Source: Candidatus Tectomicrobia bacterium (GTDB lineage: Bacteria; UBA8248). From it: a DNA stretch of 64,000 nt. The notes under the pieces are model-generated. The model did no database searches and was not told where the DNA came from. It saw nothing but the letters and a program-made list of their open reading frames with translations. Positions 1 through 21,806 of this stretch are shown here, piece by piece (positions within the stretch are counted from its first letter, which is position 1; each line of letters opens with the position of its first letter). A program made the position numbers and the translations under genes. The stretch lies in assembly GCA_016192135.1 (NCBI GenBank), contig JACPUR010000040.1, positions 1 through 64,000 of the forward strand. The letters run 5' to 3'.

Positions 1-1052
1 AGCGCCCCGGTGCTGATGCCGTGGTTGATCATCTGGAGCTGGGCGCCCAGGACCCCTTGCTCGTTCAGGGCGAAGACGCCCAGCATGACGAAGCCCAGGT
101 GGCTCACCGAGGAGTAGGCGACGAGCTTCTTCACGTCGGTCTGGGCCATGGCCACCAGGGCGCCATAGATGATGCCGATGATCGAGAGCAGCACCATGAA
201 GGGCACGAAGACCTGGCTCGCCTGGGGCAGGAGCGGCAGCGCGAAGCGCACGAAGCCGTAGGTGCCCATCTTCAGCAGGATGCCGGCCAGGATGACGCTC
301 CCCGCCGTCGGCGCCTCGACGTGGGCGTCGGGCAGCCAGGTGTGGAAGGGGAACATCGGCACCTTGATGGCGAAGCCGATGAAGAAGGCGAGGAAGATCC
401 ACACCTGGAGGGAGAGCGGGATTTTCGGCCCCACGGCGTAGAGCTCGACGATGTCGAAGGTGAGGCGCCCCGTGCCCACCTTCACGTTGACGAAGTAGAG
501 GGCGAGGATTCCCAGGAGCATGAGCACGCTGCCGAACAGCGTGTAGAGGAAGAACTTGATCGCGGCGTAGAGCTTCCGGGGCCCGCCCCAGATGCCGATG
601 AGGAAGTACATCGGCACGAGGGTGATCTCGAAGAAGACGTAGAAGAGGAAGAGGTCGAGGGCGATGAAGGTGCCCAGCATGCCCGTCCCGAGCAGGAGCA
701 GGCAGACGTAGTATTCCTTCTCGCGCTCGTGGATGGCGCTGAACGAGCACACCACCGAGACCAGCATGGTGAGGGTGGTGAGGAGCACCAGAAGGACGCT
801 GATCCCGTCCACCCCGACGAAGTAACTCACCCCGATGGAGGGGATCCAGGCCGCCTTCTCCACGAACTGGAAGCCGGCCTGCGCCGTGTCGAAGCGGGTC
901 CAGAGGGGGACGGAGAGGAGGAAGTCCACCGCCGCCACTCCCGTGGCGAAGGCCTTGATCGCCCCCGTCCGCTCCCTCTGGAAGAAGAGCATGACGATCA
1001 CCGCGCCCAGGACGGGCAGGAAGGTGATCAGCGTCAGAAGCGGCATGTTCAT
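1..1052 (-). CDS. nuoM: NADH-quinone oxidoreductase subunit M, reduced operon (3' end off window)
   Basis: Antiporter-like proton-pumping subunit of the complex I membrane arm. About 350 residues are visible, starting MNMPLLTLITFLPVLG; the C-terminus lies beyond the left edge. The family core is present: WLPDAHVEAPTAGSVILAG and the segment TDVKKLVAYSSVSHLGFVML, plus many hydrophobic helices. The gene follows nuoL by 23 bp and is the last visible member of the second, reduced complex I operon; nuoN is expected just off the window. A 65-bp stretch (79-143) is identical in DNA to 9859-9923 in the other nuoM, although flanking sequence has diverged. Identification is secure; only completeness is unknown. 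Confidence 0.93.
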   Translation of the reverse strand, partial: MNMPLLTLITFLPVLGAVIVMLFFQRERTGAIKAFATGVAAVDFLLSVPLWTRFDTAQAGFQFVEKAAWIPSIGVSYFVGVDGISVLLVLLTTLTMLVSVVCSFSAIHEREKEYYVCLLLLGTGMLGTFIALDLFLFYVFFEITLVPMYFLIGIWGGPRKLYAAIKFFLYTLFGSVLMLLGILALYFVNVKVGTGRLTFDIVELYAVGPKIPLSLQVWIFLAFFIGFAIKVPMFPFHTWLPDAHVEAPTAGSVILAGILLKMGTYGFVRFALPLLPQASQVFVPFMVLLSIIGIIYGALVAMAQTDVKKLVAYSSVSHLGFVMLGVFALNEQGVLGAQLQMINHGISTGA

Positions 1053-1075
1053 AATCCCTCCAAACCCCTACGCCC

Positions 1076-3103
1076 TCAGCGGAACAGGTAGGCGCTCACC
1101 ATGAGGAAGACGCCCAGGAGCATCATGAAGAGGTAGTTCTGCACCATCCCCGACTGGATGAACTTCAGGAGCTGGGCGAAAAACGCCAGCACCGAGGCCG
1201 TGCCGTTCACCGCGCCGTCCACCGTCCTGAGGTCGAAGAGCCCCGAGAGCCGGCTGGTCCACACGGTGAGGAAGGAGCTCCCGTTCACCGCGCCGTCCAC
1301 CACGCGCTGGTCGAAGTTGAAGAGCGCGCGCATGAGCCGGTAGATGGGCTCCACGATGCAGGCCTGGTAGAACTCGTCCACGTAGTACTTGTTGAGGAGC
1401 ACCCGGTAGAGGCCCGGGAAGCGCGCCGCCAGGCGGCCCGGGGCGGCGGTGTCGCGCATGTACATCCGCCAGGCCAGGGCGATGCCGCCCAGGGCCACGG
1501 CGATGGCCAGCGCGATGAGGACGATTCCCACCGTCCCGTGCCCGCCGCCCGGCTCCCCGGCCCCGGCCGCGGCCTTCACGATCCGGTAGCCCTCGCCCGC
1601 CGCGGCGTGCGCGGCGGGGGCCTTGGCCAGCGAGGGGGCCAGGAACTTGTGGATCCAGCCCGCGTCGGGCGGGAAGCCCGGGAGGATGCCCCCCACCACG
1701 CTCAGGACGGCCAGGATGACGAGCGGGACGGTCATCGTGGCGGGCGACTCGTGGATGTGCTCGCGGGCGTGGTGGTCCACCCGCATCTCGCCGTGGAAGG
1801 TCATGAAGATGAGGCGGAACATGTAGAAGGCCGTCATGAAGGCGGCCGCCGTCCCCAGCCCCCACACCAGGTAGTGCCCGGAGAAGAAGGCGCCGGCTAG
1901 GATCTCGTCCTTGCTCCAGAAGCCGGCGAAGGGGGGAACCCCCGCGATGGCGATGGCCCCGATGAGGAAGGTCCCGTAGGTGACGGGCATCTTGGACCGC
2001 AGGCCGCCCATGTAGCGCATGTCCTGCTGCTGGTCGGCCGGGGCGTGGTGCAGGGCGTGGATGACGCTCCCCGACCCCAGGAAGAGCAGGCCCTTGAAGA
2101 AGGCGTGGGTCATCAGGTGAAAGATGCCCGAGGCGAAGGCGCCCACGCCCAGGGCCATGAACATGAAGCCGAGCTGGCTCACCGTGCTGTAGGCCAGCAC
2201 GCGCTTGATGTCGTTCTGCACGAGGCCGATGGAGGCGGCGAAGATGGCCGTGAGCGCCCCGACCAGGGCCACCACCTCGAGCGCCGCCGGCCCCTGGACG
2301 TAGATGGGGCTGGTGCGGGCCACCATGTAGACCCCCGCCGTCACCATGGTGGCGGCGTGGATGAGGGCCGAGACCGGGGTGGGGCCCTCCATGGCGTCCG
2401 GCAGCCAGACGTAGAGGGGGATCTGGGCGCTCTTGCCCATCGCCCCGATGAAGAGGAGGAGCCCGATGGCCGTGGCGGCGGGGGCGGCCAGCTCGGCCTT
2501 GAAGGCCTCGCCGTAGGCCAAGCTCCCCGTCAGGGACCAGATGAGGAACATGCCCAGCAGGAACCCGGCGTCCCCGATGCGGTTGACGATGAAGGCCTTC
2601 TTCCCGGCGTCGGAGGCGGATTTCTTCTCGTACCAGAAGCCGATCAGCAGGTAGCTGCACAGCCCCACGCCCTCCCAGCCGACGAACATGACCAGGTAGT
2701 TGTCCCCCATGACGAGGAGGAGCATGGAGACCATGAAGAGGTTGAGGTAGGTGAAGAAGCGGGGGTAGCCGGGGTCGCCGTGCATGTAGCCGATGGAGTA
2801 GAGGTGGATGACGAAGCCCACCCCCGTCACCACCAGCAGCATGATGGTGCTCAGCGGGTCGATGAGGAAGCTCAGGGAGGCACTGAACTTGCCGGCCGTG
2901 ATCCAGTCCCAGACGGCCACGGTGTGGGAGCCGCCCGGGCCCAGGATCATCTCGCGGCTTATGCCCAGCACCACCAGGAAGGAGAGCCCGGCCATGAGGG
3001 TGGCGAGGTGCCCGGCCGCGCCGCGGGTCCTCGAGCCCAGCAGGCCGTTGATGAGCACCCCCGCGAGGGGGAACAGCGGGATGAGCCACGCGTACCGGAT
3101 CAT
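1076..3103 (-). CDS. nuoL: NADH-quinone oxidoreductase subunit L, reduced operon
   Basis: 675-residue distal proton-pumping subunit of the complex I membrane arm. It begins MIRYAWLIPLFPLAGVLING, with GGGAG just upstream of the ATG, and has about 15-16 hydrophobic segments. The core motif KSAQIPLYVWLPDAMEGPTP, the helix NDIKRVLAYSTVSQLG and a C-terminal lateral-helix region ending FLMVSAYLFR are all visible. Length is slightly above the usual 610-660 residues. It lies 7 bp after nuoK and 23 bp before nuoM. DNA at 2352-2438 and 2167-2218 is identical to parts of the second nuoL (12205-12291 and 12020-12071), suggesting gene conversion between the paralogous operons. Confidence 0.96.
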   Translation of the reverse strand: MIRYAWLIPLFPLAGVLINGLLGSRTRGAAGHLATLMAGLSFLVVLGISREMILGPGGSHTVAVWDWITAGKFSASLSFLIDPLSTIMLLVVTGVGFVIHLYSIGYMHGDPGYPRFFTYLNLFMVSMLLLVMGDNYLVMFVGWEGVGLCSYLLIGFWYEKKSASDAGKKAFIVNRIGDAGFLLGMFLIWSLTGSLAYGEAFKAELAAPAATAIGLLLFIGAMGKSAQIPLYVWLPDAMEGPTPVSALIHAATMVTAGVYMVARTSPIYVQGPAALEVVALVGALTAIFAASIGLVQNDIKRVLAYSTVSQLGFMFMALGVGAFASGIFHLMTHAFFKGLLFLGSGSVIHALHHAPADQQQDMRYMGGLRSKMPVTYGTFLIGAIAIAGVPPFAGFWSKDEILAGAFFSGHYLVWGLGTAAAFMTAFYMFRLIFMTFHGEMRVDHHAREHIHESPATMTVPLVILAVLSVVGGILPGFPPDAGWIHKFLAPSLAKAPAAHAAAGEGYRIVKAAAGAGEPGGGHGTVGIVLIALAIAVALGGIALAWRMYMRDTAAPGRLAARFPGLYRVLLNKYYVDEFYQACIVEPIYRLMRALFNFDQRVVDGAVNGSSFLTVWTSRLSGLFDLRTVDGAVNGTASVLAFFAQLLKFIQSGMVQNYLFMMLLGVFLMVSAYLFR

Positions 3104-3110
3104 GCGCTCC

Positions 3111-3413
3111 CTACCACTTGAGAAGGTTGATCTCGTCCACGTTCACCATCTGGCGGTCCCGGTTCAGCGAGATCAGGATGGCCAGCCCCACGGCGGCCTC
3201 GCACGCGGCCACGGCGATGATGAAGATGGCGAACACCTGCCCGGTCAGGTCGGCCCACTGGCGGGCGAAGCCCACGAACGTGACGTTCACCGAGTTCAGC
3301 ATCAGCTCGATGCTGAGCAGGATCATGATGGCGTTGCGGCGCATGAGGACGCCCGCCGCCCCGATGAGGAAGAGGATCGCGCCCAGCGCCAGGAAGTGCG
3401 TCAGCGGTATCAA
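3111..3413 (-). CDS. nuoK: NADH-quinone oxidoreductase subunit K, reduced operon
   Basis: 100-residue, three-helix membrane subunit of complex I that contributes to the proton channel next to NuoJ and NuoN. The start is TTG ([15 protein letters not shown]). The conserved glutamate helix reads [12 protein letters not shown] and a second acidic residue occurs in [11 protein letters not shown], both typical of NuoK. The C-terminus VDEINLLKW is a family signature. It sits between nuoJ (20 bp) and nuoL (7 bp) in the operon. The protein is clearly distinct from its paralogue at 12984-13289, so the two operons are not a recent whole-operon duplication. Confidence 0.95.
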
Positions 3414-3432
3414 GGCTCCCCTCCCCCCGCGC

Positions 3433-3942
3433 CTAGCGGGTGATCCGCCGCTTGGCGAGGACGATGGCCCCGATCATGGCCGCCAGCAGGAGCATCGAGG
3501 CGACCTCGAACGGGAACAGGAACTTCGTGTAGAGCACCTGCCCCAGGGCCTCCACGTTGCCCGGCGTCTCCCCGAGCTTCCAGGGCCACCGCCGGGCCTC
3601 GGGGTAGCCCCCGCGCCCCAGGACCATCCAGATCTCGGCCGCCAGCAGCAGGGCGGCGGCCAGGGCGAGGACGCTCTGGCGGTGCCACTGCCTGAGGCGG
3701 ATGCTCACCCCCACGTTCATCAGCATGATCGAGAAGAGGTAGAGCACCATGATGCCGCCGGCGTACACCAGGATCTGCACCCCGGCCAGGAACTCCGCCC
3801 CCGCCAGCACGAACAACCCCGCCATGAACAGGAAGGCGAGAACCAGGGAGAGCGCGGCGTGGATGACGTTGGCGCGCGTCACCATCAGCAGCGACGCCCC
3901 CACGATGCCCGCCGCGAAAATGTAGAAGAACAGCAGCTCCAA
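3433..3942 (-). CDS. nuoJ: NADH-quinone oxidoreductase subunit J, reduced operon
   Basis: 169-residue membrane subunit of complex I with about five helices. The start is TTG ([12 protein letters not shown]) preceded by GGAGGGC. The NuoJ signature around the pi-bulge helix, [18 protein letters not shown], is intact, and the C-terminus [13 protein letters not shown] is typical. It follows nuoH by only 16 bp. In normal operons nuoI lies between nuoH and nuoJ; here there is no room for it, so the absence of nuoI at this place is certain from the sequence. Confidence 0.95.
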
Positions 3943-3958
3943 GGCGGCCCTCCGCCGG

Positions 3959-4930
3959 CTAGAGGAAGAGGTACTTCACGAGCCCGGTCAAGAAGATGTT
4001 CGCCATCACGAGCGGGAACATGAACTTCCACCCCAGCCGCATGAGCTGGTCGTAGCGGTAGCGCGGCAGGGTGGCGCGGAGCCAGATGAAGACGAAGATG
4101 AGGACGCCCATCTTCAGCAGGTACCAGACGAAGCCGGGCAGGGGGATCCAATCGATCCCCTGCCAGCCCCCGAAGAAGAGGGCCACGGCCACCGCCGTGG
4201 TCACCATGATGTTCGCGTACTCGGCCAGGAAGAAGAAAGCGAACTTCATGCCGCTGTACTCGGTGTGGAAGCCCGCCACCAGCTCGGTCTCGGCCTCGGG
4301 CAGGTCGAAGGGCACCCGGTTCGTCTCCGCGAGCGAGGCGATGAAGAACACCACGAAGGCCAGCGGCTGGTAGAAGACGAACCAGACGTCGCCCTGCGCC
4401 TCGACGATCCGCTGGAGGTTCAGCGAGCCGGCCAGCATCAGGGGCCCGATGAGGGAGAAGCCCAGGAAGATCTCGTAGCTCAGCATCTGGGCGGCGCTCC
4501 TGAGGGCGCCGAGGAGGCTGTACTTGCTGTTCGAGGCCCAGCCGGCCATGACGATGCCGAAGACCCCGAGCGAGCTCACCGCCAGGATGAAGAAGATCCC
4601 GACGTTGATCTGAGTGATGTAGAAGTTCTGGCTGAAGGGCAGCACCGAGTACACCACGAAGGCCGGCACCAGCACCATGACGGGCGCGATGACGAAGACG
4701 ATCTTGTCCGCCTTGTCGGGGATGATGTCTTCCTTCAGGAAGAGCTTGAGGCCGTCGGCGATGGGCTGGAGGAGCCCGTGCCAGCCCACCCGCATGGGGC
4801 CGAGGCGCATCTGGATGTGGGCGATGATCTTCCGCTCGAGGTAGGTGAGGTAAGCCACCACCAGGGAGACGACGCCCAGGACGACGGCTATCTTCACCAG
4901 GGCGATGAGCGCCTCTGCCACGATACCCAA
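3959..4930 (-). CDS. nuoH: NADH-quinone oxidoreductase subunit H, reduced operon
   Basis: 323-residue membrane subunit that forms the quinone-chamber roof and the junction between the membrane arm and the peripheral arm of complex I. The start is TTG with AGGAG eight bases upstream. Conserved segments are [20 protein letters not shown], the motif [40 protein letters not shown] and [10 protein letters not shown]. It follows nuoD by 53 bp, so the nuoE, nuoF and nuoG genes that normally sit between D and H are missing. The paralogue at 14388-15374 differs throughout, for example MRVGWHG here against NRVGPAG there. Confidence 0.96.
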
Positions 4931-4983
4931 CCGCGGGACTCCTCTCTCCGGCCTTCCGGCTCCGGAGCTCTACGCCGGGCGCG

Positions 4984-6126
4984 TCAGCGGTCGCACTCGC
5001 CCAGGACGATGTCGATGCTTCCGATGATGGCCACCACGTCCGCCACCAGGCCGCCCATCACGAGCTTCTTGAGGCCGCTCAGGTTCACGAACGAGGGGGG
5101 GCGGATGCGCACCCGGTACGGCGTCTCCGAGCCGTCGCTCACGAGGTAGAAGCCGAACTCGCCCTTGGGATTCTCGATGCTGTGGTAGACCTCCCCCGCC
5201 GGCGGCTTGATCGTGCGCGGCACTTTGCAGCTCACCGGCCCCTTGGGGAGTTGGGCGAGGCACTGCTGGATGATGCGGTTGCTCTGGCGCATCTCCTCGA
5301 CGCGCACCAGGTAGCGGTCGTAGACGTCGCCGTTCTCCCCGACCGGGACCACGAAGTCCAGGTAGGGGTAGGCCGCGTAGGGCTGGGCCCGGCGGATGTC
5401 CCACCGCACGCCGCTCCCCCGGATGATCGGGCCCGTGAGGCTCAGGTCGATGGCGTCGTCCGCCGAGATGACGCCCACCCCCCGGGTTCGCTGGAGCCAG
5501 ATGCGGTTGTCGGTGAGGAGCGTCTCGTAGTCGCCGATGCGGGCCGGGAAGAGGTCCACGAACTCCTGCGAGAGGTCCAGGAACTTCTGGGGCACGTCCT
5601 GGTAGAGCCCGCCCAGGCGGAAGGCGTTCACCGTCAGCCGCGCGCCGAAGGCCTGCTCGAAGAGGTCGAGCACCATCTCCCGCTCGCGGAAGCACCACAG
5701 GAACACTGTCATCGCCCCGATGTCGAGGGCGTGCGTCGCGAGCCAGAGCAGGTGGCTCGAGATGCGGGAGAACTCCGCCACCATGGTGCGGATGTAGTGG
5801 GCCCGCATCGGGATCTCCCAGCCGAAGAGCTTCTCCACCGCCGTCACCCAGGCGAGGTTGCTCGAGGGCGCGGCGATATAGTCGAGCCGGTCGGTGTAGG
5901 GGATGAACATCGTGTAGGTGATGTTCTCGCCGATCTTCTCGGTGCCCCGGTGAAGGTAGCCGATGTCGCAGTCGCAGTCGGTCACCGTCTCGCCGTCGAG
6001 GCGGAGGATGACCCGCAGCACGCCGTGGGTGCTCGGGTGCTGCGGCCCCATGTTGATGATGAGCTCCTCGGTGCCGGGCAGCACCGAGGAGCGCTCGATC
6101 CGGGTGGAGGACTCCACCTCGAACAT
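4984..6126 (-). CDS. nuoD: NADH-quinone oxidoreductase subunit D, reduced operon
   Basis: About 380-residue 49-kDa-type subunit lining the quinone site in the peripheral arm. The ATG at 6126 (MFEVESSTRIERSS) has GGGAGAG at good spacing; a GTG five codons upstream is the alternative. The loop GPQHPSTHGV carries the quinone-binding His (His34), and Tyr83 in YTDRLDY is 49 residues later, the spacing known for the quinone-ligand pair. The signature YLHRGTEKIGEN differs from YLHTGIEKNMEV of the second copy, so the two belong to different NuoD lineages. The C-terminus IDIVLGECDR fits the family end, with Cys where the other copy has Ile. Intact and probably functional. Confidence 0.96.
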   Translation of the reverse strand: MFEVESSTRIERSSVLPGTEELIINMGPQHPSTHGVLRVILRLDGETVTDCDCDIGYLHRGTEKIGENITYTMFIPYTDRLDYIAAPSSNLAWVTAVEKLFGWEIPMRAHYIRTMVAEFSRISSHLLWLATHALDIGAMTVFLWCFREREMVLDLFEQAFGARLTVNAFRLGGLYQDVPQKFLDLSQEFVDLFPARIGDYETLLTDNRIWLQRTRGVGVISADDAIDLSLTGPIIRGSGVRWDIRRAQPYAAYPYLDFVVPVGENGDVYDRYLVRVEEMRQSNRIIQQCLAQLPKGPVSCKVPRTIKPPAGEVYHSIENPKGEFGFYLVSDGSETPYRVRIRPPSFVNLSGLKKLVMGGLVADVVAIIGSIDIVLGECDR

Positions 6127-6166
6127 CACGCGCTCTCCCACGCGAGGCCCGCTCCGGGGCGGGCGC

Positions 6167-6745
6167 TCACTCGCCGAATTCCTTGCGCTTGGGCTTGGTG
6201 TACACCCGCTCGCCCCGGCCCTCCAGGGGATAGTCCTTCCGGAGGGGGTGGCTGCCCCAGTCCTCGGGCAGCAGGATGCGCCGGAGGTCCGGGTGGCCCT
6301 TGAAGCGCACCCCGAACAGGTCGTACGCCTCCCGCTCCATCCAGTTGGCCCCGCTCCAGACGCCGGTGACGGAGGGGGCCTCCTCCCCGTCGCGGAGCTT
6401 CACCTTGAGCCGGAGCCGCCGGTTATGGTCGAAGCTGTACAGATGGTAGACGACGTGGAACGGGCGCTCCTCCCCGGGCCAGTGGGCCGCCGTGAGGTCC
6501 GAGAGCAGGCGGAAGCGGGCCGAGGGGTGGTCGCGCAGCAGGGTGGCCGCCGCGACCAGCGCCTCCGCGCGCAGGACCAGGGTGGCCTCGTCGGCCATGT
6601 CCTTGTAGGCGGTCTGCTCGAGGACGGCGCCCGGCCGCTCGCGCTCCACGAGCTCGCGCAGGTCCTGCGCCGGCGGGGCCGGCGCCGCCGCGGGGGCGGA
6701 CCCGGCGCCCTCCTCCTTGCCGTCCGGCTGTGCTTCGTCTGCCAT
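6167..6745 (-). CDS. nuoC: NADH-quinone oxidoreductase subunit C, reduced operon
   Basis: 192-residue 30-kDa-type peripheral-arm subunit of complex I that packs against NuoB and NuoD. The chosen ATG begins MADEAQPDGKEEGAG; the frame is open further upstream but that stretch has no family similarity. After an Ala/Pro-rich leader of about 35 residues come the typical elements FHVVYHLYSFDHNRRLRLKV and the signature MEREAYDLFGVRFKGHPDLR, followed by LPEDWGSHPLRKDYPLEG. It lies 17 bp after nuoB and 40 bp before nuoD. Identification rests on the C-terminal signature, which is strong. Confidence 0.95.
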   Translation of the reverse strand: MADEAQPDGKEEGAGSAPAAAPAPPAQDLRELVERERPGAVLEQTAYKDMADEATLVLRAEALVAAATLLRDHPSARFRLLSDLTAAHWPGEERPFHVVYHLYSFDHNRRLRLKVKLRDGEEAPSVTGVWSGANWMEREAYDLFGVRFKGHPDLRRILLPEDWGSHPLRKDYPLEGRGERVYTKPKRKEFGE

Positions 6746-6762
6746 CGGATTCCCTGGCCGCC

Positions 6763-7245
6763 TTACGCGGGGCGGCGGATGTAGCGCTCCTGCTCGATCT
6801 TCTTCTGGAGCTGCATGACGCCCCACATCAGCGACTCGGGGCGGGGCGGGCAGCCGGGGACGTAGACGTCCACCGGGACGACCTCGTCCACCCCCTGCAT
6901 CACGGCGTAGTTCGCGTAGGGGCCGCCGCAGGTGGCGCAGTTGCCCATGGCGATGACCCAGCGGGGCTCGGGCATCTGGTCGTACACCCGCCGCAGGGCC
7001 TGCCCCATCTTGTGCGTCACCGTGCCCGCCACGATCATCACGTCCGACTGCCGGGGCGTGGCGCGGAAGATGACGCCGAAGCGGTCGAAGTCGTACCGCG
7101 AGGCGCCCGAGGCCATCATCTCAATGGCGCAGCAGGCCAGGCCGAACGTCATGGGCCAGAGCGCGCTCTTGCGCGCCCAGGCGACCAGCCCGTCGACCCG
7201 GGTGGTGATGAAGTTGTCGTTGAACTTGCCTTCCACTAAGCCCAT
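6763..7245 (-). CDS. nuoB: NADH-quinone oxidoreductase subunit B, reduced operon
   Basis: 160-residue PSST-type subunit that carries Fe-S cluster N2, the electron donor to quinone. The start [12 protein letters not shown] overlaps the end of nuoA by 10 bp. The four N2 ligands are present: Cys38-Cys39 in [11 protein letters not shown], Cys103 in [11 protein letters not shown] and Cys132 in [11 protein letters not shown]. There is an extra cysteine (Cys106) that the second copy lacks (MGACASTGG). Because the operon has no nuoI, the clusters that normally feed N2 must come from another locus or be replaced. Confidence 0.96.
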
Positions 7246-7631
7246 TCCAACGCCTCCTTCCTCCAGGCGTAGAAATATCCGACCAGCAGGACCGCGATGA
7301 AGAGCATCATCTCGATGAAGCCGAACAGCCCCAGGGAGTCGTACTGCACCGCCCAGGGGAAGAGGAACACGGCCTCGACGTCGAACAGCAGGAACAGGAT
7401 GCCCAGCAGATAGAAGCGGATCGAGAAGCGCTCGTTTGCCTCCATCAGCGGGGGGATGCCGCACTCGTAGGGGGAGAGCTTGGCCGCGTCGGGCCGGTTG
7501 GGCCGCACCAGCAGGGCGGCGACGAGCGTCACCCCCGCGAAGCCGAAGGCCACCAGGGTGAAGATGAAGATGGGCACGTAGGCGTTGATCGACTGGTAGT
7601 CGCGGAAAAACGCCCCCAGCAGCTCCGCCAT
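7236..7631 (-). CDS. nuoA: NADH-quinone oxidoreductase subunit A, reduced operon
   Basis: 131-residue, three-helix membrane subunit at the complex I arm junction; first gene of the reduced operon. The signature [20 protein letters not shown] and the helix [15 protein letters not shown] are diagnostic, including the cysteine-bearing loop. The N-terminus [20 protein letters not shown] is longer than that of the second copy. The stop overlaps nuoB by 10 bp. The gene starts about 108 bp downstream of a sigma70-like promoter placed just after the preceding nuoN, so it may be transcribed independently as well as by read-through from the complete operon. Confidence 0.95.
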
Positions 7632-7779: not shown

Positions 7780-9255
7780 TTAATTCAGCAGGAGCGTGGA
7801 GCGCAGGGCCAGCTCGAAGAACGCGGAGGGGAAGATTCCGAAATTGAGGATGCCCGCCGCGGCCAGCAGCAGCGCCGCCAGGGCGTAGCTCCAGCCGGGG
7901 CCCCGGGACGGGCGGGCGGGCTCCTCCCCGGGCTCGCGCATGTACATCAGAACGACGAGGCGGAGGTAGTAGTAGACCGAGACCACGCTATTCAGCACGG
8001 CGATGACCACGAGCCACACGAGGCCGGCCTTCACCCCGGCGCCGAAGAGGTAGAACTTGGCCACGAACCCGCCCGTCGGCGGGAGCCCCGCCAGGGCCAC
8101 CATGAACAGGGCCATCGCGGCGGCCAGGCCGGGGCGGGTGTAGCCCATGCCGGCGTAGTCCTCGATGCGGATGCGCTCCTCCCCCCGGGCCCCCGCCGCG
8201 GCCACCACGCAGAAGGCGCCCATGTTCATCAGGCCGTACACCAGCATGTAGAAGAGGAAGCTCCCGGCGGCCAGGTCGCTCCCCCGCCGGGCGGCGGCCA
8301 GGCCCACGAGGATGTAACCCGCGTGCGCGATGCTCGAGTAGGCCATCATGCGCTTGACGTCGGACTGCCAGATGGCGGCCACGTTCCCGGCCGTCATGGT
8401 GAGGGCGGCCATCACCCACAGGACGGCGTCGAGCTGGGTCCCGGCCTGGGGGCCCACCGCGAGCAGGAGGCGGAAAAACGCGGCGAAGGCCGCCACCTTG
8501 GGCCCCACCGACATGAAGGCCGTGACCGCCGTGGGGGAGCCCTCGTAGACGTCGGGCGTCCACATGTAGAAGGGCGCCGCCGCCACCTTGAAGCCCAGGC
8601 CCACCACCACGAAGCCCAGCCCGGCCAGGAAAGAGGGGCTCCGCGACGGCGGGTGGGTCGTCAGCCGCTGGGCGATCTCCAGGAGGTCCACCGACCCGGT
8701 CGCCCCGAAGATGAGCGCCATGCCGTAGAGGAGGAAGCCCGAGGCGAAGGAGCCCAGCAGGAAGTACTTGAGCGCCGCCTCGTTCCCCTCCGGCCGCCCC
8801 CGCAGGAAGCCGGCCAGGACGTAGAGGGCCAGGGAGAAGATCTCCAGCCCCACGAACACCATGAGCAGGCTTCGGGTGGCCGCCATGAGCATCATGCCCG
8901 AGGTGGCGAAGAGGATGAGGCCCAGGTACTCCCCCGCCGGCGCCTCGTCGAGGCTCCGCTGGGCGGCCGAGATGAGGACCGACATGAAGCTCGCCAGGAG
9001 GATGAGGACGAACACGAAGCGCGTGAAGCCGTCGTAGAGGTACATCCCGCCCAGCGAGGCGGCCTCGCTGCCGGGCTGGGCCGCGGCGGAGGCCCCCAGG
9101 GCGGCGGCCAGCACGGCCAGCGCGGCCGTCACGAGGAAGGAGCGCTCCCGCCGGGGAAAGAACACGTCCCACAAGAGGATGAAGACGGCCCCTCCCACCA
9201 CCAGGATGAGGGGCAGGAGGTAGGCCCACTGGATCTGCGGGAAGGGGACGGTCAC
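7780..9255 (-). CDS. nuoN: NADH-quinone oxidoreductase subunit N, complete operon
   Basis: 491-residue antiporter-like subunit of the complex I membrane arm and last gene of the complete operon. The GTG start (MTVPFPQIQWAYLLPLILVV) overlaps the nuoM stop as GTGA. Typical NuoN features are the lysine/glutamate helices, the segment LEIFSLALYVLAGF, KYFLLGSFASGFLLYGMALI, and the C-terminal MALFMVALAGLPPTGGFVAK with FYLFGAGVKAG. The gene ends at TAA 148 bp before nuoA of the reduced operon. The frame is open upstream through nuoM, but that part has no family similarity. Confidence 0.95.
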   Translation of the reverse strand: MTVPFPQIQWAYLLPLILVVGGAVFILLWDVFFPRRERSFLVTAALAVLAAALGASAAAQPGSEAASLGGMYLYDGFTRFVFVLILLASFMSVLISAAQRSLDEAPAGEYLGLILFATSGMMLMAATRSLLMVFVGLEIFSLALYVLAGFLRGRPEGNEAALKYFLLGSFASGFLLYGMALIFGATGSVDLLEIAQRLTTHPPSRSPSFLAGLGFVVVGLGFKVAAAPFYMWTPDVYEGSPTAVTAFMSVGPKVAAFAAFFRLLLAVGPQAGTQLDAVLWVMAALTMTAGNVAAIWQSDVKRMMAYSSIAHAGYILVGLAAARRGSDLAAGSFLFYMLVYGLMNMGAFCVVAAAGARGEERIRIEDYAGMGYTRPGLAAAMALFMVALAGLPPTGGFVAKFYLFGAGVKAGLVWLVVIAVLNSVVSVYYYLRLVVLMYMREPGEEPARPSRGPGWSYALAALLLAAAGILNFGIFPSAFFELALRSTLLLN

Positions 9256-10820
9256 GGCCGGCCTCCTTTCCGGAGGCGGTCGGCCAGGGCCGAGGGGACA
9301 CCGCGCGGGTCCTCGCCCGGCGCCTCGACGCTGAGCACCCGCCGCCCCACCTGGGTGAGCCAGGCCTGGGCCGAGGGTTCGATTTTCTCGAGCAGCGGCT
9401 TGGGGTAGAGGCCGATCCAAAACATGAGGAAGACCATGGGCGCCAGCACGGCCCACTCGCGGGCCGAGAGGTCGCGCAGGCCCGCGTTCGCGGGGGAGAG
9501 CCGGCTCCCGAAGAGCACCCTCTGGAGCATCCAGAGCATGTAGACCGCCGAGAGGACCACCCCCAGGGCCGCCGCGGCCGCCAGGGCCGGGCTGCGCTGG
9601 AAGGCGCCCGCCAGGATGGCGAACTCCCCGACGAAGCCGTTCAGGCCCGGAAGCCCGATGCTGCTCAGCGAGGCCAGGACGAAGAAGGCCGCCAGCGCGG
9701 GCGTCACCCGGGCGATGCCGCCGTAGTCGGCGATGAGCCGGGTGTGGCGCCGGCTGTAGAGCATGCCCACGATGAGGAAGAGCGCCCCCGTGCTCACCCC
9801 GTGGTTCACCATCTGAAGAACCCCGCCCGAGGCCCCGAGCAGGTTGAAGGAGAAGAGCCCCAGCATGACGAAGCCCAGGTGGCTCACCGAGGAGTAGGCG
9901 ACGAGCTTCTTCACGTCGGTCTGCACCATGGCCATGAGCGCCCCGTAGATGACGCCCGCCACCGCCAGCGCCAGGATGACCGGGGCGAACTCGCGCGCGG
10001 CGCTCGGGAAGAGCGGCATGGCCAGCCGCATGAAGCCGTAGGTGCCCATCTTGAGGAGCACCCCGGCCAGGATGACGCTCCCGGCCGTCGGGGCCTCCAC
10101 GTGGGCGTCGGGCAGCCAGGTGTGGAAGGGGAACATCGGCACCTTGATGGCGAAGGAGAGGGCGAAGGCCGCGAAGAGCCAGCCCTGGACGGAGGCGTCC
10201 AGGGGGCGCTCGAGGTGGGCCAGGATGTCGAAGGTCTGGCCCCCCGAGGCGAAGTAGAGCCACAGGATGGCGACCAGCATCAGCATGCTGCCGGCCATGG
10301 TGTAGAGGAAGAACTTGATCGCGGCGTAGATGCGCCGCGCCCCGCCCCAGATCCCGATGATGAGGTACATCGGGAGGAGCATGGCCTCCCAGAACACGTA
10401 GAAGAGGAAGAAGTCCAGCGCGACGAACACCCCTATCATCCCCGTCTCCAGCATGAGGAGGGAGATGTGGTAGAGCCGCACCCGGCGGTCCACGTCCCCC
10501 CAGGAGAAGAGGATGGCGATGGGGGTGAGGATGGTGGTCAGCAGGACCAGGGGCAGGCTCAGGCCGTCCACCCCCACCTTGTAGGCGACGCCGAACCGGG
10601 GCATCCAGGGGGCCGCCTCGACGAACTGCATCCGGGCGGTGCCGCCCTCGAACCCGAGGTAGAGCGCGGCGGAGAGGGCGAAGGTGGCGAGCGAGACGCC
10701 GAGCGCCGCCAGGCGGACGCGCCCCCGCCCCGCCTCGCCGTCCTCCCGCAGGAGGAGGAGCAGCAGCGCCCCCGCCAGGGGCAGGAACAGGATCGAGCTC
10801 AGCAACGGAAAACCGGCCAC
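9252..10820 (-). CDS. nuoM: NADH-quinone oxidoreductase subunit M, complete operon
   Basis: 522-residue proton-pumping subunit of complex I. The GTG start (MAGFPLLSSILFLPLAG) is preceded by GAGGAGAG; an open frame extends 54 codons upstream into repeat sequence and is not used here. Core motifs are YVFWEAMLLPMYLIIGIWGG, TWLPDAHVEAPTAGSVILAG and QTDVKKLVAYSSVSHLGFVM. DNA at 9859-9923 is identical over 65 bp to 79-143 of the other nuoM. A 249-bp gap with a dispersed repeat separates it from nuoL, the largest interruption in this operon. Confidence 0.95.
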   Translation of the reverse strand: MAGFPLLSSILFLPLAGALLLLLLREDGEAGRGRVRLAALGVSLATFALSAALYLGFEGGTARMQFVEAAPWMPRFGVAYKVGVDGLSLPLVLLTTILTPIAILFSWGDVDRRVRLYHISLLMLETGMIGVFVALDFFLFYVFWEAMLLPMYLIIGIWGGARRIYAAIKFFLYTMAGSMLMLVAILWLYFASGGQTFDILAHLERPLDASVQGWLFAAFALSFAIKVPMFPFHTWLPDAHVEAPTAGSVILAGVLLKMGTYGFMRLAMPLFPSAAREFAPVILALAVAGVIYGALMAMVQTDVKKLVAYSSVSHLGFVMLGLFSFNLLGASGGVLQMVNHGVSTGALFLIVGMLYSRRHTRLIADYGGIARVTPALAAFFVLASLSSIGLPGLNGFVGEFAILAGAFQRSPALAAAAALGVVLSAVYMLWMLQRVLFGSRLSPANAGLRDLSAREWAVLAPMVFLMFWIGLYPKPLLEKIEPSAQAWLTQVGRRVLSVEAPGEDPRGVPSALADRLRKGGRP

Positions 10821-10893
10821 CTCTCCTCCTCGGCTTCCCCAGCGCCCGCCAGAAAGCTCAAAGGCCCGGCGCCGTCTCGAATAACTTGCGTCG

Positions 10894-11034
10894 CCTCCCC
10901 CCTCTCCCCGTCTCTTCGGGTCCCCGAACCGGCCCGCCGGTTCGGGAGGGGGGAGAGGGGCCGGGGGTGAGGGAAATATCACGGCCCGCCACTAACCTTC
11001 CCTCACCCCAACCCTCTCCCAAAGGGAGAGGGAG
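10894..11034. repeat. CCCTCTCCC/GGGAGAGGG dispersed repeat inside the nuo operon
   Basis: Composite inverted repeat in the nuoL-nuoM gap. Outer arms are CCCCCTCTCCCC and GGGGGGAGAGGGG, with an inner palindrome CCGAACCGG/CCGGTTCGG at about 10924-10945. It is followed by CCCTCACCCCAACCCTCTCC and GGGAGAGGG. Related copies lie at 28346-28628, 48721-48822 and 62749-62846. Confidence 0.75.
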
Positions 11035-11069
11035 AAATTCCACACGCCCCTGGCTGCGCGCCGCCCCGC

Positions 11070-12971
11070 CTAGCCGCGCACCGTCAGGTAGATCAGGATC
11101 GCGAACGCGCCCGCCAGCATGGCCACGGCGTAGCTCTTCACGTAGCCGGTCTGGAGGCGGCGCACCGCCCCTCCGGCCGCCTGCACCGCCGCCCCCGCGC
11201 CGTTCACGGCGGCGTCGATGAGGCCCTCCTCGAAGTTCCGCCACGCCCAGATCGAGCCCCGCTTGATGGGCTGCACGATCCAGGCGTCGTAGATCTCGTC
11301 CACCCAGTACTTGTTCACCAGGAGCCGGTAGAGCCCCGGCCACCTCCGGGCGTAGGAGGCGCCCACGCCCTGGGCCTGCACGTAGAAGCGGTAGGCCAGG
11401 AAGATCCCGAAGAAGGCGATGGCGAGCGACACGGCCATCATCGCCACCTCGAGGACGGCCTCTTGGTGCCCGTCCCCGGCCTTGGGGAAGACCGGCGCCA
11501 GGAAGGCCCCGAAGACGTCCGCCCCGTGGATGAGCGGGATGCCCACCCACCCGCCCGCGATGGAGAGCAGCGCCAGCACCTGGAGGGGGACGCGCATCGG
11601 CGGGGGGGACTCGTGGAGCCGGGCCTGCTGCTCGATGGGGAGGGCGCACCTGCCGTGGAAGACCTTGAAGATGAGGCGGAACATGTAGAAGGCGGTCAGC
11701 AGGGCACCCGCCGCCCCCGCCAGCCACAGGAGGAGCCCCCCGCGCGGCGAGGTCATGGCCGCGAAGAGGATGGCGTCCTTGCTGAAGAAGCCCGCGAAGG
11801 GGAAGATGCCGGCGATCGCCAGCCCCCCTACCGTGAACGTCCAGTGCGTCACCGGCAGGCCCGCCCGCAGGCCCCCCATGCGGCGGATGTCCTGCTCCCC
11901 ATGCAGGGCGTGGATGACGCTCCCCGCGCCGAGGAAGAGGAGCGCCTTGAAGAAGGCGTGGGTCATCAGGTGGAAGATGGCGGCGGTGTAGGCCCCCACC
12001 CCCGCCGCCAGGAACATGTAGCCGAGCTGGCTCACCGTGCTGTAGGCCAGCACGCGCTTGATGTCGTTCTGGACGAGGGCGATGGTCCCCGCCATCAGCA
12101 GGGTCAGGGCCCCGATGGCGGCCACCACCCCCATGGCGAGCGGCGAGAGGGCGAAGAGGGCGTTGGTGCGCGCCACCATGTAGACGCCGGCCGTCACCAT
12201 GGTCGCGGCGTGGATGAGGGCCGAGACCGGGGTGGGGCCCTCCATGGCGTCCGGCAGCCAGACGTAGAGGGGGATCTGGGCGCTCTTGCCCGTGGCCCCC
12301 CCGAAGAGGAGCAGGCAGACGAGGGTCGCGGCGGCCGTCCCCGCCCCCAGCACCGAGGCCGCCTGGGGCAGCACCACGCCGAAGTCCAGCGAGCCGAAGT
12401 GGAACAGGATCATGAAGAGCGCGATGAGGAAGCAGAAATCCCCAACCCGGTTCACGATGAAGGCCTTCTTCCCCGCCTCGACGGCCGAGTCGCGCTCGTA
12501 CCAGAAGCCGATGAGGAGGTAGCTGCACAGCCCCACCGCCTCCCAGCCCACGAAGAGCACCAGGAAGTTGTCCCCCAGCACCAGGGTGAGCATCGAGAAG
12601 ACGAAGAGGTTGAGGTAGATGAAGTAGCGCGCCGCCCCCCGGTCGCCGTGCATGTAGCCGATGGAGTAGAGGTGGATGAGGGCGCCCACCCCGGTGATCA
12701 CCAGCACCATGACCGAGGAGAGGGGGTCCAGCAGGAAGCTGGCCTTGACGCTGAGACTCCCGACCGGGATCCACTCGAAGAGGAACGAGCGCAGCGCCCG
12801 CTGCCCGGGCGGCAGGCTCAGCAGGGAGAGGAACCCCCAGGCCCCCGCGAGGAAGGAGAGCGCGATGGCCCCCGTGGCGACCCGGCCGGCGAACTTCTCC
12901 CCCCGCCGGAGGCCGAAGAGGAGGTTCACCAGGACGCCCGCGAGCGGAAACAGCAAGATGAGTGTGAGCAC
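11070..12971 (-). CDS. nuoL: NADH-quinone oxidoreductase subunit L, complete operon
   Basis: 633-residue distal proton-pumping subunit of complex I. It starts with GTG (MLTLILLFPLAGVLVNLLFG). The conserved helix block around KSAQIPLYVWLPDAMEGPTP, the helix NDIKRVLAYSTVSQLGYMF, and a C-terminal lateral-helix region with YRLLVNKYWVDEIYDAWIV are intact. It lies 12 bp after nuoK. The amino-acid sequence matches the other NuoL strongly only in the channel core; there the DNA is identical over 87 bp (12205-12291) and 52 bp (12020-12071). Confidence 0.96.
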   Translation of the reverse strand: MLTLILLFPLAGVLVNLLFGLRRGEKFAGRVATGAIALSFLAGAWGFLSLLSLPPGQRALRSFLFEWIPVGSLSVKASFLLDPLSSVMVLVITGVGALIHLYSIGYMHGDRGAARYFIYLNLFVFSMLTLVLGDNFLVLFVGWEAVGLCSYLLIGFWYERDSAVEAGKKAFIVNRVGDFCFLIALFMILFHFGSLDFGVVLPQAASVLGAGTAAATLVCLLLFGGATGKSAQIPLYVWLPDAMEGPTPVSALIHAATMVTAGVYMVARTNALFALSPLAMGVVAAIGALTLLMAGTIALVQNDIKRVLAYSTVSQLGYMFLAAGVGAYTAAIFHLMTHAFFKALLFLGAGSVIHALHGEQDIRRMGGLRAGLPVTHWTFTVGGLAIAGIFPFAGFFSKDAILFAAMTSPRGGLLLWLAGAAGALLTAFYMFRLIFKVFHGRCALPIEQQARLHESPPPMRVPLQVLALLSIAGGWVGIPLIHGADVFGAFLAPVFPKAGDGHQEAVLEVAMMAVSLAIAFFGIFLAYRFYVQAQGVGASYARRWPGLYRLLVNKYWVDEIYDAWIVQPIKRGSIWAWRNFEEGLIDAAVNGAGAAVQAAGGAVRRLQTGYVKSYAVAMLAGAFAILIYLTVRG

Positions 12972-12983
12972 GGCCCCCCCTGC

Positions 12984-13289
12984 CTACAGCTTCAGCAGGT
13001 TCATTTCATCCACGTCGGTGGATTCCCGGTTCCGGTAGATCAGCACGACGATGGCCAGGCCGATGGCCGCCTCGGCCGCCGCCACCGCCATCACGAAGAA
13101 GACGACGAGCTGGCCGTCCAGCGAGTCGAGGGCGCTCCCGTGGGCGATGAACGCGAGGTTCGCGCCGTTCAGCATCAGCTCGATGCACAGGAAGACCACG
13201 ATGGCGTTGCGGCGCACCACCACGCCCACCACGCCCAGCGTGAAGAGCACCGCGCTCAGGATCAGGTAATGCTCGAGGGGAGCCAGCAC
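12984..13289 (-). CDS. nuoK: NADH-quinone oxidoreductase subunit K, complete operon
   Basis: 101-residue, three-helix complex I membrane subunit. The GTG start ([19 protein letters not shown]) follows AGGAGG. Both channel glutamates are present, in [15 protein letters not shown] and [15 protein letters not shown], and the end VDEMNLLKL is the family signature. It lies 22 bp after nuoJ and 12 bp before nuoL. Confidence 0.95.
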
Positions 13290-13311
13290 CCCGTCCTCCT
13301 TCCCGCCCGCC

Positions 13312-13836
13312 CTATCCCTGGCGGGTCCGCCGCTGGGCCAGGACCACAGCCCCCACGATGCCCACGAACAGCAGCACCCCCATCGCCTGGAAGGGGAGCA
13401 CGTACTGCGTCACCAGGACCTTGCCCACCGCCTGCACGGTGCCTATCTCGGCCAGCCGCCCGGGGGGGAAGAGCCCCTTCGCCCCGGTCCGCAGGGGGGT
13501 CGAGACGAACAGATTGATCAGTCCGGCGAAGACGCCCAGGGCGATGATGGTTCCGGCGAGCTTCTGGAAGGGGAGCCGGAGCGCCCCCCTCTCCTCGGCC
13601 CTCAGGTCGATGAGCATCACGACGAAGAGGAAGAGCATCATGATGGCGCCCGCGTACACGATCACCTGCACGACCGCCACGAACTGGGCGTTCAGGGAGA
13701 GATAGAGCCCCGCCAGCCCCAGGAAGGTGAGCACGAGGCTCAGGACGCAGTAGAGCGGGTTCGGCAGCGCCACCACGGCCACGGCGCCGCCCACCGTCAT
13801 CAGGGCCAGTAGATAGAAGAGCAGCTGCCCGGCCAC
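13312..13836 (-). CDS. nuoJ: NADH-quinone oxidoreductase subunit J, complete operon
   Basis: 174-residue membrane subunit of complex I with five predicted helices. The GTG start ([20 protein letters not shown]) has GGAGG six bases upstream. The NuoJ signature [20 protein letters not shown] is present, followed by a hydrophilic loop and a last helix ending [14 protein letters not shown]. It lies 33 bp after nuoI. Confidence 0.95.
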
Positions 13837-13869
13837 TAGCGGCCTCCCTCCCTCGAACGGTGGGCTCCC

Positions 13870-14349
13870 CTAGACATAGGTGAGGAGCTTCTTCTCGTCG
13901 TAGCGGGCCTTGAGCTCGGGATAATCCCCGGTCCGCTTGACCAGCAGATCCTGCTTCTCGTAGAGGAACTTGTCCCGGTGGTCCTCGCAGAACTCGTACT
14001 CGTTGCCGAGCACGATGGCCCCGACGGGGCAGGCCTCCTCGCAGTAGCCGCAGAAGATGCACCGCAGCTCGTTGATCTCGTAGATGCTCGCGTAGCGCTC
14101 GCCCTTGGAGGTGGGCCGCGCCGGGTCGTTCTCGGCGGACTCGACGAAGATGCAGTCCACCGGGCAGGCGGCCGAGCAGAGCTTGCAGCCCACGCAGCGC
14201 TCGAGGCCGTCCTCCCACCGGAGGAGCTTGTGCAGCCCGCGGTAGCCCTTGGGCATCTCTTCCTTCTCGTCCGGGTACTGCACCGTCACCCGGCTCTTCC
14301 AGGAGTGCTTCAGCGTGACCCAAAGCCCCCGGACGATCTCGCCCAGCAT
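13870..14349 (-). CDS. nuoI: NADH-quinone oxidoreductase subunit I, two [4Fe-4S] ferredoxin-type
   Basis: 159-residue TYKY-type subunit that carries clusters N6a and N6b and relays electrons to N2 in NuoB. The ATG (MLGEIVRGLWVTLKHSWKSR) is chosen because upstream codons lack similarity. The two ferredoxin motifs are Cys52/55/58/62 (CVGCKLCSAACP) and Cys97/100/103/107 (CIFCGYCEEACP). It lies between nuoH and nuoJ as usual. This is the only nuoI in the window; the reduced operon has none. Confidence 0.96.
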   Translation of the reverse strand: MLGEIVRGLWVTLKHSWKSRVTVQYPDEKEEMPKGYRGLHKLLRWEDGLERCVGCKLCSAACPVDCIFVESAENDPARPTSKGERYASIYEINELRCIFCGYCEEACPVGAIVLGNEYEFCEDHRDKFLYEKQDLLVKRTGDYPELKARYDEKKLLTYV

Positions 14350-14387
14350 CTCTTTTCCCTCCGCTTGCCTCCCTCGGGAGGCGGCGG

Positions 14388-15374
14388 CTAGCCCAGCAGG
14401 GCCATCACCCCCGCCGTCGCCACCACGTTCAGGATGGCGAGGGGGAGCAGCACCTTCCAGCCGAACGCCATGAGCTGATCGTAGCGCAGCCGGGGGGTGG
14501 TGGCCCGCACCCACATGAAGAAGAACATGAAGGCGAACACCTTGAGCAGGAACCAGACGACCGGCGGCAGGAAGGGCCCCCGCCAGCCGCCCAGGAAGAA
14601 CGTCGCCGCCACCGCGGAGAGCGTGATCATGCTGCAGTACTCCGCGAGGAAGTACATGGCGAAGTGCATGCTGCTGTACTCGGTGTGGAACCCGCCCGTC
14701 AATTCGCTCTCGGCCTCCGGGAGGTCGAAGGGCGCCCGGTTCGTCTCGGCCAACATGCAGACGAGGAACAGGAGGAAGCCGAGCGGCTGGAGCAGGATGA
14801 AGGGATAATCCGCCTGCGCCTCGACGATGTCCTTGAGGCTCAGGCTCCCCGTGATGAGCACCACCCCCAGGAGCGACATCCCGAGGCTCAGCTCGTAGCT
14901 GATGAGCTGGGCCGCCGAGCGCAGCCCGCCCAGGAGGGGGTACTTGCTGTTCGAGGCCCAGGCCCCGAGCACGATCCCGTACACCCCGATGCCCCCCATC
15001 GCGAAGATGTAGAGGATGCCCACGTTCACGTCGGCCACGACGAGGTCCACCTGCCGGCCGAAGACCGTGACCGAGCTCCCGAAGGGGACGACGGCGATGG
15101 CCGCCATGGCGGGCACGAGGGAGAGCAGGGGCGCCAGGACGAAGATCAGCTTGTCCGCCTGGGCGGGGATGACCGTTTCCTTGAACATGAGCTTGATGCC
15201 GTCCGCGATGGGCTGCAGGAGCCCCGCCGGCCCCACCCGGTTCGGGCCGTAGCGCACCTGCACGAGCGCGAACACCCGGCGCTCGGCCCAGGTCATGTAC
15301 GCGGCGATCAGGAGGAGCGCCCCGAAGGCGCCAGCCACCTTGATCAGCATCACGGCGAGGTCGGCCAGGCTCAT
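14388..15374 (-). CDS. nuoH: NADH-quinone oxidoreductase subunit H, complete operon
   Basis: 328-residue quinone-chamber membrane subunit of complex I. The ATG (MSLADLAVMLIKVAGAFG) overlaps the nuoG stop as ATGA. Conserved features are [60 protein letters not shown] and HTEYSSMHFAMYFLAEY. The reading frame is open far upstream across nuoG, but only the part from 15374 is NuoH. Confidence 0.96.
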   Translation of the reverse strand: MSLADLAVMLIKVAGAFGALLLIAAYMTWAERRVFALVQVRYGPNRVGPAGLLQPIADGIKLMFKETVIPAQADKLIFVLAPLLSLVPAMAAIAVVPFGSSVTVFGRQVDLVVADVNVGILYIFAMGGIGVYGIVLGAWASNSKYPLLGGLRSAAQLISYELSLGMSLLGVVLITGSLSLKDIVEAQADYPFILLQPLGFLLFLVCMLAETNRAPFDLPEAESELTGGFHTEYSSMHFAMYFLAEYCSMITLSAVAATFFLGGWRGPFLPPVVWFLLKVFAFMFFFMWVRATTPRLRYDQLMAFGWKVLLPLAILNVVATAGVMALLG

Positions 15375-17944: not shown

Positions 17945-17966
17945 CACTCCGCCTTTCGCTCCCGCC

Positions 17967-19265
17967 TCATCCCGGGTAGGGGCTGCCGAGCGGGCAGCGG
18001 CCCTCCGCGACGTGGGCCTCGAACTCGCCGTGGAACTTCTTGAGGAAGGCGCCGAACATCATGGCGCAGGCGTCCGAGAGGACGCAGATCGTGTTGCCCC
18101 GCATGTTGGGGTCGATGGAGGCCAGGGTGGCGAGGTCGTCCGCCCGGCCCCCGCCCGCCTCCATCCGGTTGAGGATCTCCGAGACCCAGCCCGTGCCCTC
18201 GCGGCACACCGAGCACTGCCCGCAGGACTCGTGCTCGAAGAAGCGCGCGAGCCGCCCGGCCGCCTGCACCATGCAGGCCGTCTCGTCCATCACGATGACG
18301 CCGCCGCTCCCGCCCATGCTCCCGGCGCGGGCCAGGGCGTCGAAGTCCATCTTCACCTTGCCCTCGATGACCTCCTGGGCCGTGAGCACGGGGGCGCTCG
18401 CGCCGCCCGGGATGACGGCCTTGAGGCCCTTGCCGTTCCGCATGCCCCCCGCGTGCCCGAAGATGATCTCCTCGCAGGTGAGGCCCAGGGGGAGCTCGTA
18501 GAGGCCCGGCTTCTTCACGTGGCCGGAGACGCAGTACATGCGGGTGCCCGTGTTCTTCTCGTCGATGCCGATCCCGGCGAACCACTCGGCCCCTTTGTTC
18601 ACGATGTGGGGGAGGTTCGAGAGGGTCTCGACGTTGTTGATGACGGTGGGCTTCCCGTAGAGCCCCACCACGGCCGGGAAGGGGGGCTTGAGCCTCGGGT
18701 GGCCCCGCTTGCCCTCGAGGGACTCGAGCAGGCCCGTCTCCTCCCCGCAGATGTAGGCTCCGGCCCCCCGGTGGGTGTAGATGTCGCAGCCGAAGCCGCT
18801 CCCCAGGATGTTCTCCCCGATGTAGCCCTTGGCGTAGGCCTCGCCCAGCGCCCGCTCGACCGAGCGCCAGGGGGCGTCGAACTCCCCCCGGATGTAGATG
18901 TAGGCCTTGGCGATGCCCACCGCGTAGCAGGCGATGAGGATGCCCTCGATGAGCTGGTGGGGATCGCGGATCATCAGCTCGCGGTCCTTGAAGGTGCCGG
19001 GCTCGCCCTCGTCCCCGTTCACCGCCAGGTACTTAGGGTTCAGGTTCTGGGGCACGAAGCTCCACTTGAGCCCGCAGGGGAAGCCCGCCCCGCCCCGGCC
19101 CCTGAGCCCCGACGCCTTGACCAGCTCGATGACGTCCTTGGGCTCCATCTTGCCCAGGATCTTGCGGACGGCCTGGTAGCCCCCCGTCGCCTCGTAGCCG
19201 GCGAGGGTGAGCGCCTCGGGGTCCCCGAAGCGCGAGGTCACGATCTTCTCGTAGCGGATCGCCAT
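17967..19265 (-). CDS. nuoF: NADH-quinone oxidoreductase subunit F (NADH/FMN subunit)
   Basis: 432-residue subunit that oxidises NADH and holds FMN and cluster N3. The ATG at 19265 begins MAIRYEKIVTSRFGDPEALT. The nucleotide/FMN site shows as GLRGRGGAGFPCGLKW (residues 53-68) and NGDEGEPGTFKDRE (83-96). The [4Fe-4S] ligands are Cys348, 351, 354 (ESCGQCSVCREGT) and Cys394 (NTICVLSDA). It follows nuoE by 25 bp. This is the only nuoF in the window, so only the complete operon encodes NADH oxidation. Confidence 0.97.
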   Translation of the reverse strand: MAIRYEKIVTSRFGDPEALTLAGYEATGGYQAVRKILGKMEPKDVIELVKASGLRGRGGAGFPCGLKWSFVPQNLNPKYLAVNGDEGEPGTFKDRELMIRDPHQLIEGILIACYAVGIAKAYIYIRGEFDAPWRSVERALGEAYAKGYIGENILGSGFGCDIYTHRGAGAYICGEETGLLESLEGKRGHPRLKPPFPAVVGLYGKPTVINNVETLSNLPHIVNKGAEWFAGIGIDEKNTGTRMYCVSGHVKKPGLYELPLGLTCEEIIFGHAGGMRNGKGLKAVIPGGASAPVLTAQEVIEGKVKMDFDALARAGSMGGSGGVIVMDETACMVQAAGRLARFFEHESCGQCSVCREGTGWVSEILNRMEAGGGRADDLATLASIDPNMRGNTICVLSDACAMMFGAFLKKFHGEFEAHVAEGRCPLGSPYPG

Positions 19266-19290
19266 TTTTCCGCTTTCCCCGCCCCCGGCC

Positions 19291-19890
19291 TCAGCCGGCG
19301 GCCTTCTCACGCGCGGCGCCGGCGCCCTCGCGCGGCGGCGCGGCCTCGTCCGCCCCGACGGGGGAGACCGGCTCGCCCTTCTCCAGCGCGGCCACGAGCT
19401 CGTCCACCAGGGCGGGGGTGACGTGCTCGAAGTAGTCCTCGTTGATCTGGAGGCAGGGCGCCCCGCCGCACGCCCCCAGGCACTCGACCCGCTCGACGGA
19501 GAACTTCCCGTCGGCCCGGGTGTGGCCCGCGCGGCAGCCCAGCCGCCGCTCCAGGTGGCGCAGGATGCCCGCCGCCCCCAGCAAGGCGCAGGAGAGGTTG
19601 TCGCACACCATGAAGTGGTGCTTCCCGACGGGCTTGGTCTTGAGCATGGTGTAGAAGCTCACCACGCCCCAGACGTCCATCGGGGAGAGCTCGAAGAGCG
19701 AGGCCACGTGCTGCATGACGGCGCTCGTGATGTGGCCCGCCTGCTTCTGCGCCAGGTGCAGCGCCGGGATGAGGGCCGAGCGCTTCTGCGGGTACTTGGC
19801 GAGGATGCGGTCGAGCTCGGCCCGGTTCTCGGGCGTGAACTCGAACCGCTCCTCCCTCGGGGAGTGCGGGAACCGCGCGCCTAGCGCCAT
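19291..19890 (-). CDS. nuoE: NADH-quinone oxidoreductase subunit E (24-kDa [2Fe-2S])
   Basis: 199-residue thioredoxin-fold subunit that binds [2Fe-2S] cluster N1a in the NADH module. The ligands are Cys96 and Cys101 (VCDNLSC) and Cys137 and Cys141 (CLGACGGAPC). The N-terminal helical part ILAKYPQKRSALIPALHLAQ is typical. The C-terminus extends about 25 residues beyond the usual end in a low-complexity Ala/Glu/Gly stretch. It lies 19 bp after nuoD and 25 bp before nuoF. Confidence 0.96.
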   Translation of the reverse strand: MALGARFPHSPREERFEFTPENRAELDRILAKYPQKRSALIPALHLAQKQAGHITSAVMQHVASLFELSPMDVWGVVSFYTMLKTKPVGKHHFMVCDNLSCALLGAAGILRHLERRLGCRAGHTRADGKFSVERVECLGACGGAPCLQINEDYFEHVTPALVDELVAALEKGEPVSPVGADEAAPPREGAGAAREKAAG

Positions 19891-19909
19891 CTCGTTCCTT
19901 TCCTGATCC

Positions 19910-21130: not shown

Positions 21131-21165
21131 GACGGCTCCCGCGCCGGGCCCTGAAGGGGCGGCGC

Positions 21166-21723: not shown

Positions 21724-21806
21724 TCGGTGTTCCCTTTTTTCGGGTCACCCCTCTCCCGGCCGGGCCGCGGCCCCGGGGGAGCCGCGGAAAGAGAGGGTGT
21801 TCCGTC

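Follow-up and report, generated by a model that had tools for sequence, protein, structure and literature searches.

Eleven-subunit complex I and its usual gene layout

The closest described counterpart of the operon considered here is the 11-subunit type of complex I of Desulfitobacterium hafniense DCB-2, which lacks NuoEFG and uses a donor other than NADH (PMC11238625). What feeds these enzymes is still debated: one proposal is a platform at which several donors could dock, and ferredoxin is a leading candidate (PMC11238625). In a related lineage, Nitrospina gracilis possesses a second complex I, NUO-2, with dispersed genes (nuoB2 and nuoF2 are unlinked) and a proposed link to ferredoxin; it has a modified NuoF and NuoG together with an E subunit, and its nuoI lies inside the cluster (PMC3578206). 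Another second complex I, the 2M type of the Nitrospirales, occurs beside the canonical enzyme, contains two NuoM and is also proposed to be linked to ferredoxin (PMC12342949, citing Chadwick et al. 2018).

The window, a stretch of 64,000 nucleotides from a Candidatus Tectomicrobia bacterium (contig JACPUR010000040.1, here C40), carries a complete 14-gene nuo set (set I) and, directly downstream of it, a second and shorter one (set II). Set II is most probably (probability about 0.85) a dedicated 11-subunit complex I without an NADH module, with a relocated nuoI, in a clade named Nitrospinota or Tectomicrobia. It has in common with the D. hafniense type subunits A, B, C, D, H, J, K, L and M (and N in its relatives), the lack of NuoEFG, a NuoI in the genome that falls in the same tree group and, as proposed here, a donor that would not be NADH. 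It differs in that nuoI is unlinked, within a trxB-nuoI-pncB cluster and not between nuoH and nuoJ, and in that a 14-subunit set lies directly upstream. A ferredoxin link is proposed for set II as for NUO-2, but set II has no EFG. Unlike the 2M enzyme, set II has a single nuoM, followed by nuoN in its relatives. Its Q and P modules are homologous to those of the canonical 14-subunit enzyme, represented in the same genome by set I, where nuoI sits between nuoH and nuoJ and encodes a longer inter-motif loop. By gene content and phylogeny, set II appears to belong to the known 11-subunit class and to depart from it only in layout; the position of nuoI between nuoH and nuoJ is usual for this enzyme type and not essential to it.

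The second nuo operon

Set II lies on the minus strand in the order nuoA-B-C-D-H-J-K-L-M, with products that match the corresponding family models, most of them above the curated cut-offs. The genes are nuoA (7236..7631; NCBIfam NuoA models), nuoB (6763..7248; over the TIGR01957 cut-off), nuoC (6167..6745; over TIGR01961), nuoD (4984..6126, with a possible alternative in-frame GTG start at 6141; over TIGR01962), nuoH (3959..4930; over NF004741), nuoJ (3433..3942; NCBIfam NuoJ models), nuoK (3111..3413; over NF004320), nuoL (1076..3103; over TIGR01974) and nuoM (3..1052; over TIGR01972). The window starts at base 1 of contig C40, and because the contig ends there the 3' end of nuoM is cut. All nine genes are open, and neither the reading frames nor the family models reveal a frameshift, which the earlier note had named as a possible objection.

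The absence of E, F, G and I from their places, as claimed in that note, is confirmed by the gaps: 53 bp separate the nuoD stop (4984) from the nuoH start (4930), and 16 bp (3943..3958) separate the nuoH stop (3959) from the nuoJ start (3942). The latter gap is the site of nuoI in 11- and 14-subunit operons, and outgroup operons carry the gene here. The residues said to be retained are likewise in place: the four N2 cysteines of NuoB are C52, C53, C117 and C146 in an alignment to PSST, and the quinone-site His34 and Tyr83 of NuoD (numbered from the ATG at 6126) have the spacing found in known complex I. NuoD is 78-96% identical across the family. At the level of sequence, the cofactor sites are intact and conservation is strong.

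Set I occupies about 7788..22666 on the minus strand, is complete from nuoA to nuoN and has its own nuoI inside 13870-14514. The genome encodes one NuoF, which sits in set I, and no NuoEFG module belonging to set II was found.

The closest genomes form a family of 18 (f1), the sole family of its phylum among the genomes compared. The same I-less order was found in the family genomes wherever it could be read, with nuoN following nuoM, and the tandem (nuoN of set I, then nuoA of set II) occurs in every family genome in which the junction was read. Beyond nuoN, where the earlier note had suggested looking for a missing input gene, neither nuoI nor nuoEFG nor any further Fe-S gene was present in the family genomes read; the genes downstream are unrelated ones or encode a HAD phosphatase and an AIR-synthase-like protein. 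The nuoN of set II is known from these relatives only. A search for the remainder of nuoM and nuoN elsewhere in the window's own assembly gave no match; antiporter-like proteins on contigs C17 and C1 were rejected as Mrp-type and hydrogenlyase-like, respectively. In an unrelated genome, another complex I tandem consists of an 11-type operon with a further run of nuoA, B, C and D behind it (G031:C62, L061:2382-13751).

An unlinked nuoI gene

Where, then, is the NuoI of set II encoded? A TIGR01971 search of the genome returned two genes over the cut-off: the nuoI of set I and a further gene, on contig C19 (28880-29422, minus strand; L036:1378-1923), the product of which scores 126.8 bits against a cut-off of 113.05. 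This orphan NuoI is full length (181 residues) and has both CxxCxxCxxxCP (4Fe-4S) motifs intact. The absence of NuoI therefore does not hold for the genome, since a second full-length copy lies on another contig. Set II and the orphan together would make up a complete complement of 11 subunits, with A-D, H and J-M in the window, I on the other contig and the end of the operon, nuoN, seen only in relatives.

The orphan gene starts about 60 bp after trxB and ends 26 bp before pncB. Of the 18 family genomes, 16 contain it, with identities of 78-93%, and in each of these 16, where the locus is assembled, trxB and pncB are its neighbours; 15 genomes have both it and the NuoD of set II. The named relatives that carry it are MAGs with the labels Nitrospinota, Nitrospinae or Candidatus Tectomicrobia, including UBA8248. 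A GTDB phylum UBA8248, to which the window would belong, has been listed beside Tectomicrobia (PMC10839748). The two genomes without the orphan are G009, from which the housekeeping trxB is also absent, and G016, in which a contig ends inside trxB; both cases therefore look like assembly gaps, and the same is probably true of the missing set II NuoD in G014 and G016. In a same-genus draft (G002:C116, L078:536-990) a frameshift breaks the orphan nuoI in two and about 16 residues are lost around the first cluster motif, through assembly error or real damage. In the outgroups G038 and G029, a search for a trxB-pncB pair without nuoI found no pncB next to trxB.

The two cluster motifs of the orphan are separated by 27 residues that include GKGR, as in 11-type NuoI, compared with 34 in the NuoI of set I. 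A short loop with GKG(K/R) is common to the orphan and many 11-type NuoI, although loop length alone is an imperfect separator of the types, since some 14-type NuoI have 28 residues. The orphan and its orthologues (L063:1501-2043; L064-L077) also end in a conserved C-terminal extension, about NYxGPRPWGKLFGLRxxExxRRP, which is absent from the closest operon-borne 11-type proteins. As NuoI is the subunit that meets the donor in 11-subunit enzymes, this tail is a candidate docking site.

The same genome contains, on contig C1, a formate-hydrogenlyase-like or group 4 complex locus (G000:C1:328000-345000; L045) that includes a NuoI-like subunit of its own as well as two antiporter-like subunits. 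That this locus is supplied with its own NuoI-like gene was counted in favour of the orphan serving set II.

Shared histories of NuoI and NuoH

The first NuoI tree places the orphan together with the NuoI of 11-subunit (nuoABCDHIJKLMN) operons with support of 92/91, and forcing it into a clade with the NuoI of set I costs 25.6 log units and is rejected (AU p=0.031). Its placement was weak in a smaller tree without long branches, and for this reason a wider sample was added, drawn from 290 genomes and yielding a tree of 74 rows. The nearest matches outside the family are mostly NuoI from within nuoABCDHIJKLMN operons (best in G104, G065 and G185). In the 74-row tree, in which several nodes are weak and some branches long, a branch with SH-aLRT 96 parts nearly all 14-type NuoI, including those of the family's set I, from the orphan; 12 of the 14 operon-borne 11-type NuoI fall on the orphan's side and two on the 14-type side. 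The orphan is phylogenetically distinct from the NuoI of set I.

Of the trees proposed in the earlier note, that of NuoH was informative: the set II protein is nested among the genomes of the same 11-subunit operons (SH-aLRT 97; 100/98 with G038 in the first tree). The NuoD tree recovers clean family groups with unresolved deep nodes. By phylogeny, the histories of nuoI and of the other set II genes match. Since the 11-subunit operons that are sister to set II have nuoI in its normal place between nuoH and nuoJ, relocation is the simplest account.

Electron input and alternative explanations

In the proposed scheme, set II would provide the Q module and the proton-pumping arm, and its NuoI would be supplied from the unlinked cluster, the gene having left the H-J position in an ancestor of the clade and become fixed next to trxB. 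The orphan would dock on set II, and electrons entering at its two 4Fe-4S clusters (N6a, N6b) would pass to N2 in NuoB and reduce quinone at the NuoD/NuoB/NuoH site while protons are pumped by H, L, M and N. The most likely donor would be reduced ferredoxin from 2-oxoacid:ferredoxin oxidoreductases, given that there is no second NADH module and that three POR-type oxidoreductases are encoded in the genome; the gene neighbourhoods of set II and the orphan point to no donor. The reverse direction, from quinol to ferredoxin, may also operate. Docking of the orphan on set II is inferred, and so is the use of ferredoxin, which is somewhat better than an even bet.

The earlier note had supposed a complex without NuoI, one that borrows NuoI and NuoEFG from the complete set, or a different electron input. 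Borrowing of NuoI, perhaps with NuoEFG, is made conceivable by the tandem arrangement, which could allow co-expression, and by the single NuoF. It is nevertheless very improbable: a separate, conserved 11-type NuoI exists that would otherwise have no complex, and set II NuoH groups with operons that lack EFG. The NuoI part of the claim is accordingly not supported, while the gene order, the lack of EFG and the idea of a different input are. Borrowing of NuoEFG alone would be compatible with the one NuoF, but the closest relatives of set II are known EFG-less operons. Could set II instead be an input-less or decaying duplicate, a proton/quinone device only or non-functional? The local operon does lack any electron-input gene, but every frame is intact, NuoD is highly conserved, the N2 and quinone-site residues are kept and so is the orphan NuoI, all of which makes decay extremely improbable.

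A further reading takes the neighbours of the orphan as its partners, with thioredoxin reductase (TrxR) passing electrons from NADPH to give an NADPH- or thiol-linked complex I. The strict trxB-nuoI-pncB linkage and the clade-specific tail would fit, but this TrxR passes the equivalog cut-off of ordinary thioredoxin reductase and, as the only such enzyme of the genome, is needed for housekeeping, and none of the other conserved neighbours is an energy gene. The proximity of trxB to nuoI is therefore probably incidental, and the reading is very improbable. Just as doubtful is the notion that the tail (consensus NYxGPRPWGKLFGLR) and the fixed TrxR and nicotinate phosphoribosyltransferase neighbours mark a complex I with an electron input of a new sort, either exchangeable or linked to NADPH/thioredoxin.

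Dispersal of 11-subunit sets

On the preferred reading, a dedicated 11-subunit complex with a relocated nuoI, set II has an ordinary mechanism but an unusual layout, a lineage-specific oddity that leaves the already known enzyme class unchanged. What it adds is a lineage with 14- and 11-subunit sets in tandem in which the nuoI of the second set has been relocated; literature searches did not turn up a comparable unlinked nuoI in this clade. It also illustrates that subunit loss concluded from one operon can be wrong.

Another bacterial family (G029, G177) likewise has solitary 11-type NuoI genes. In the one-contig genome G029 the 11-type NuoD, NuoI and NuoH genes each lie apart, and the dispersed loci found are L058 (G029:C1:1446488), L155 (G029:C1:918219), G029:C1:1543420 and L223 (G177). 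Dispersal of the 11-subunit set has happened more than once. In two unrelated genomes, distant TrxR-fold flavoproteins (25-27% identity) are encoded in or beside nuo clusters (L136:8793-9743 in G028; L123:3467-4381 in G038). The G028 gene lies in the interval from nuoD to nuoG, a stretch that gave no match to nuoE or nuoF, and both proteins are possible alternative input flavoproteins.
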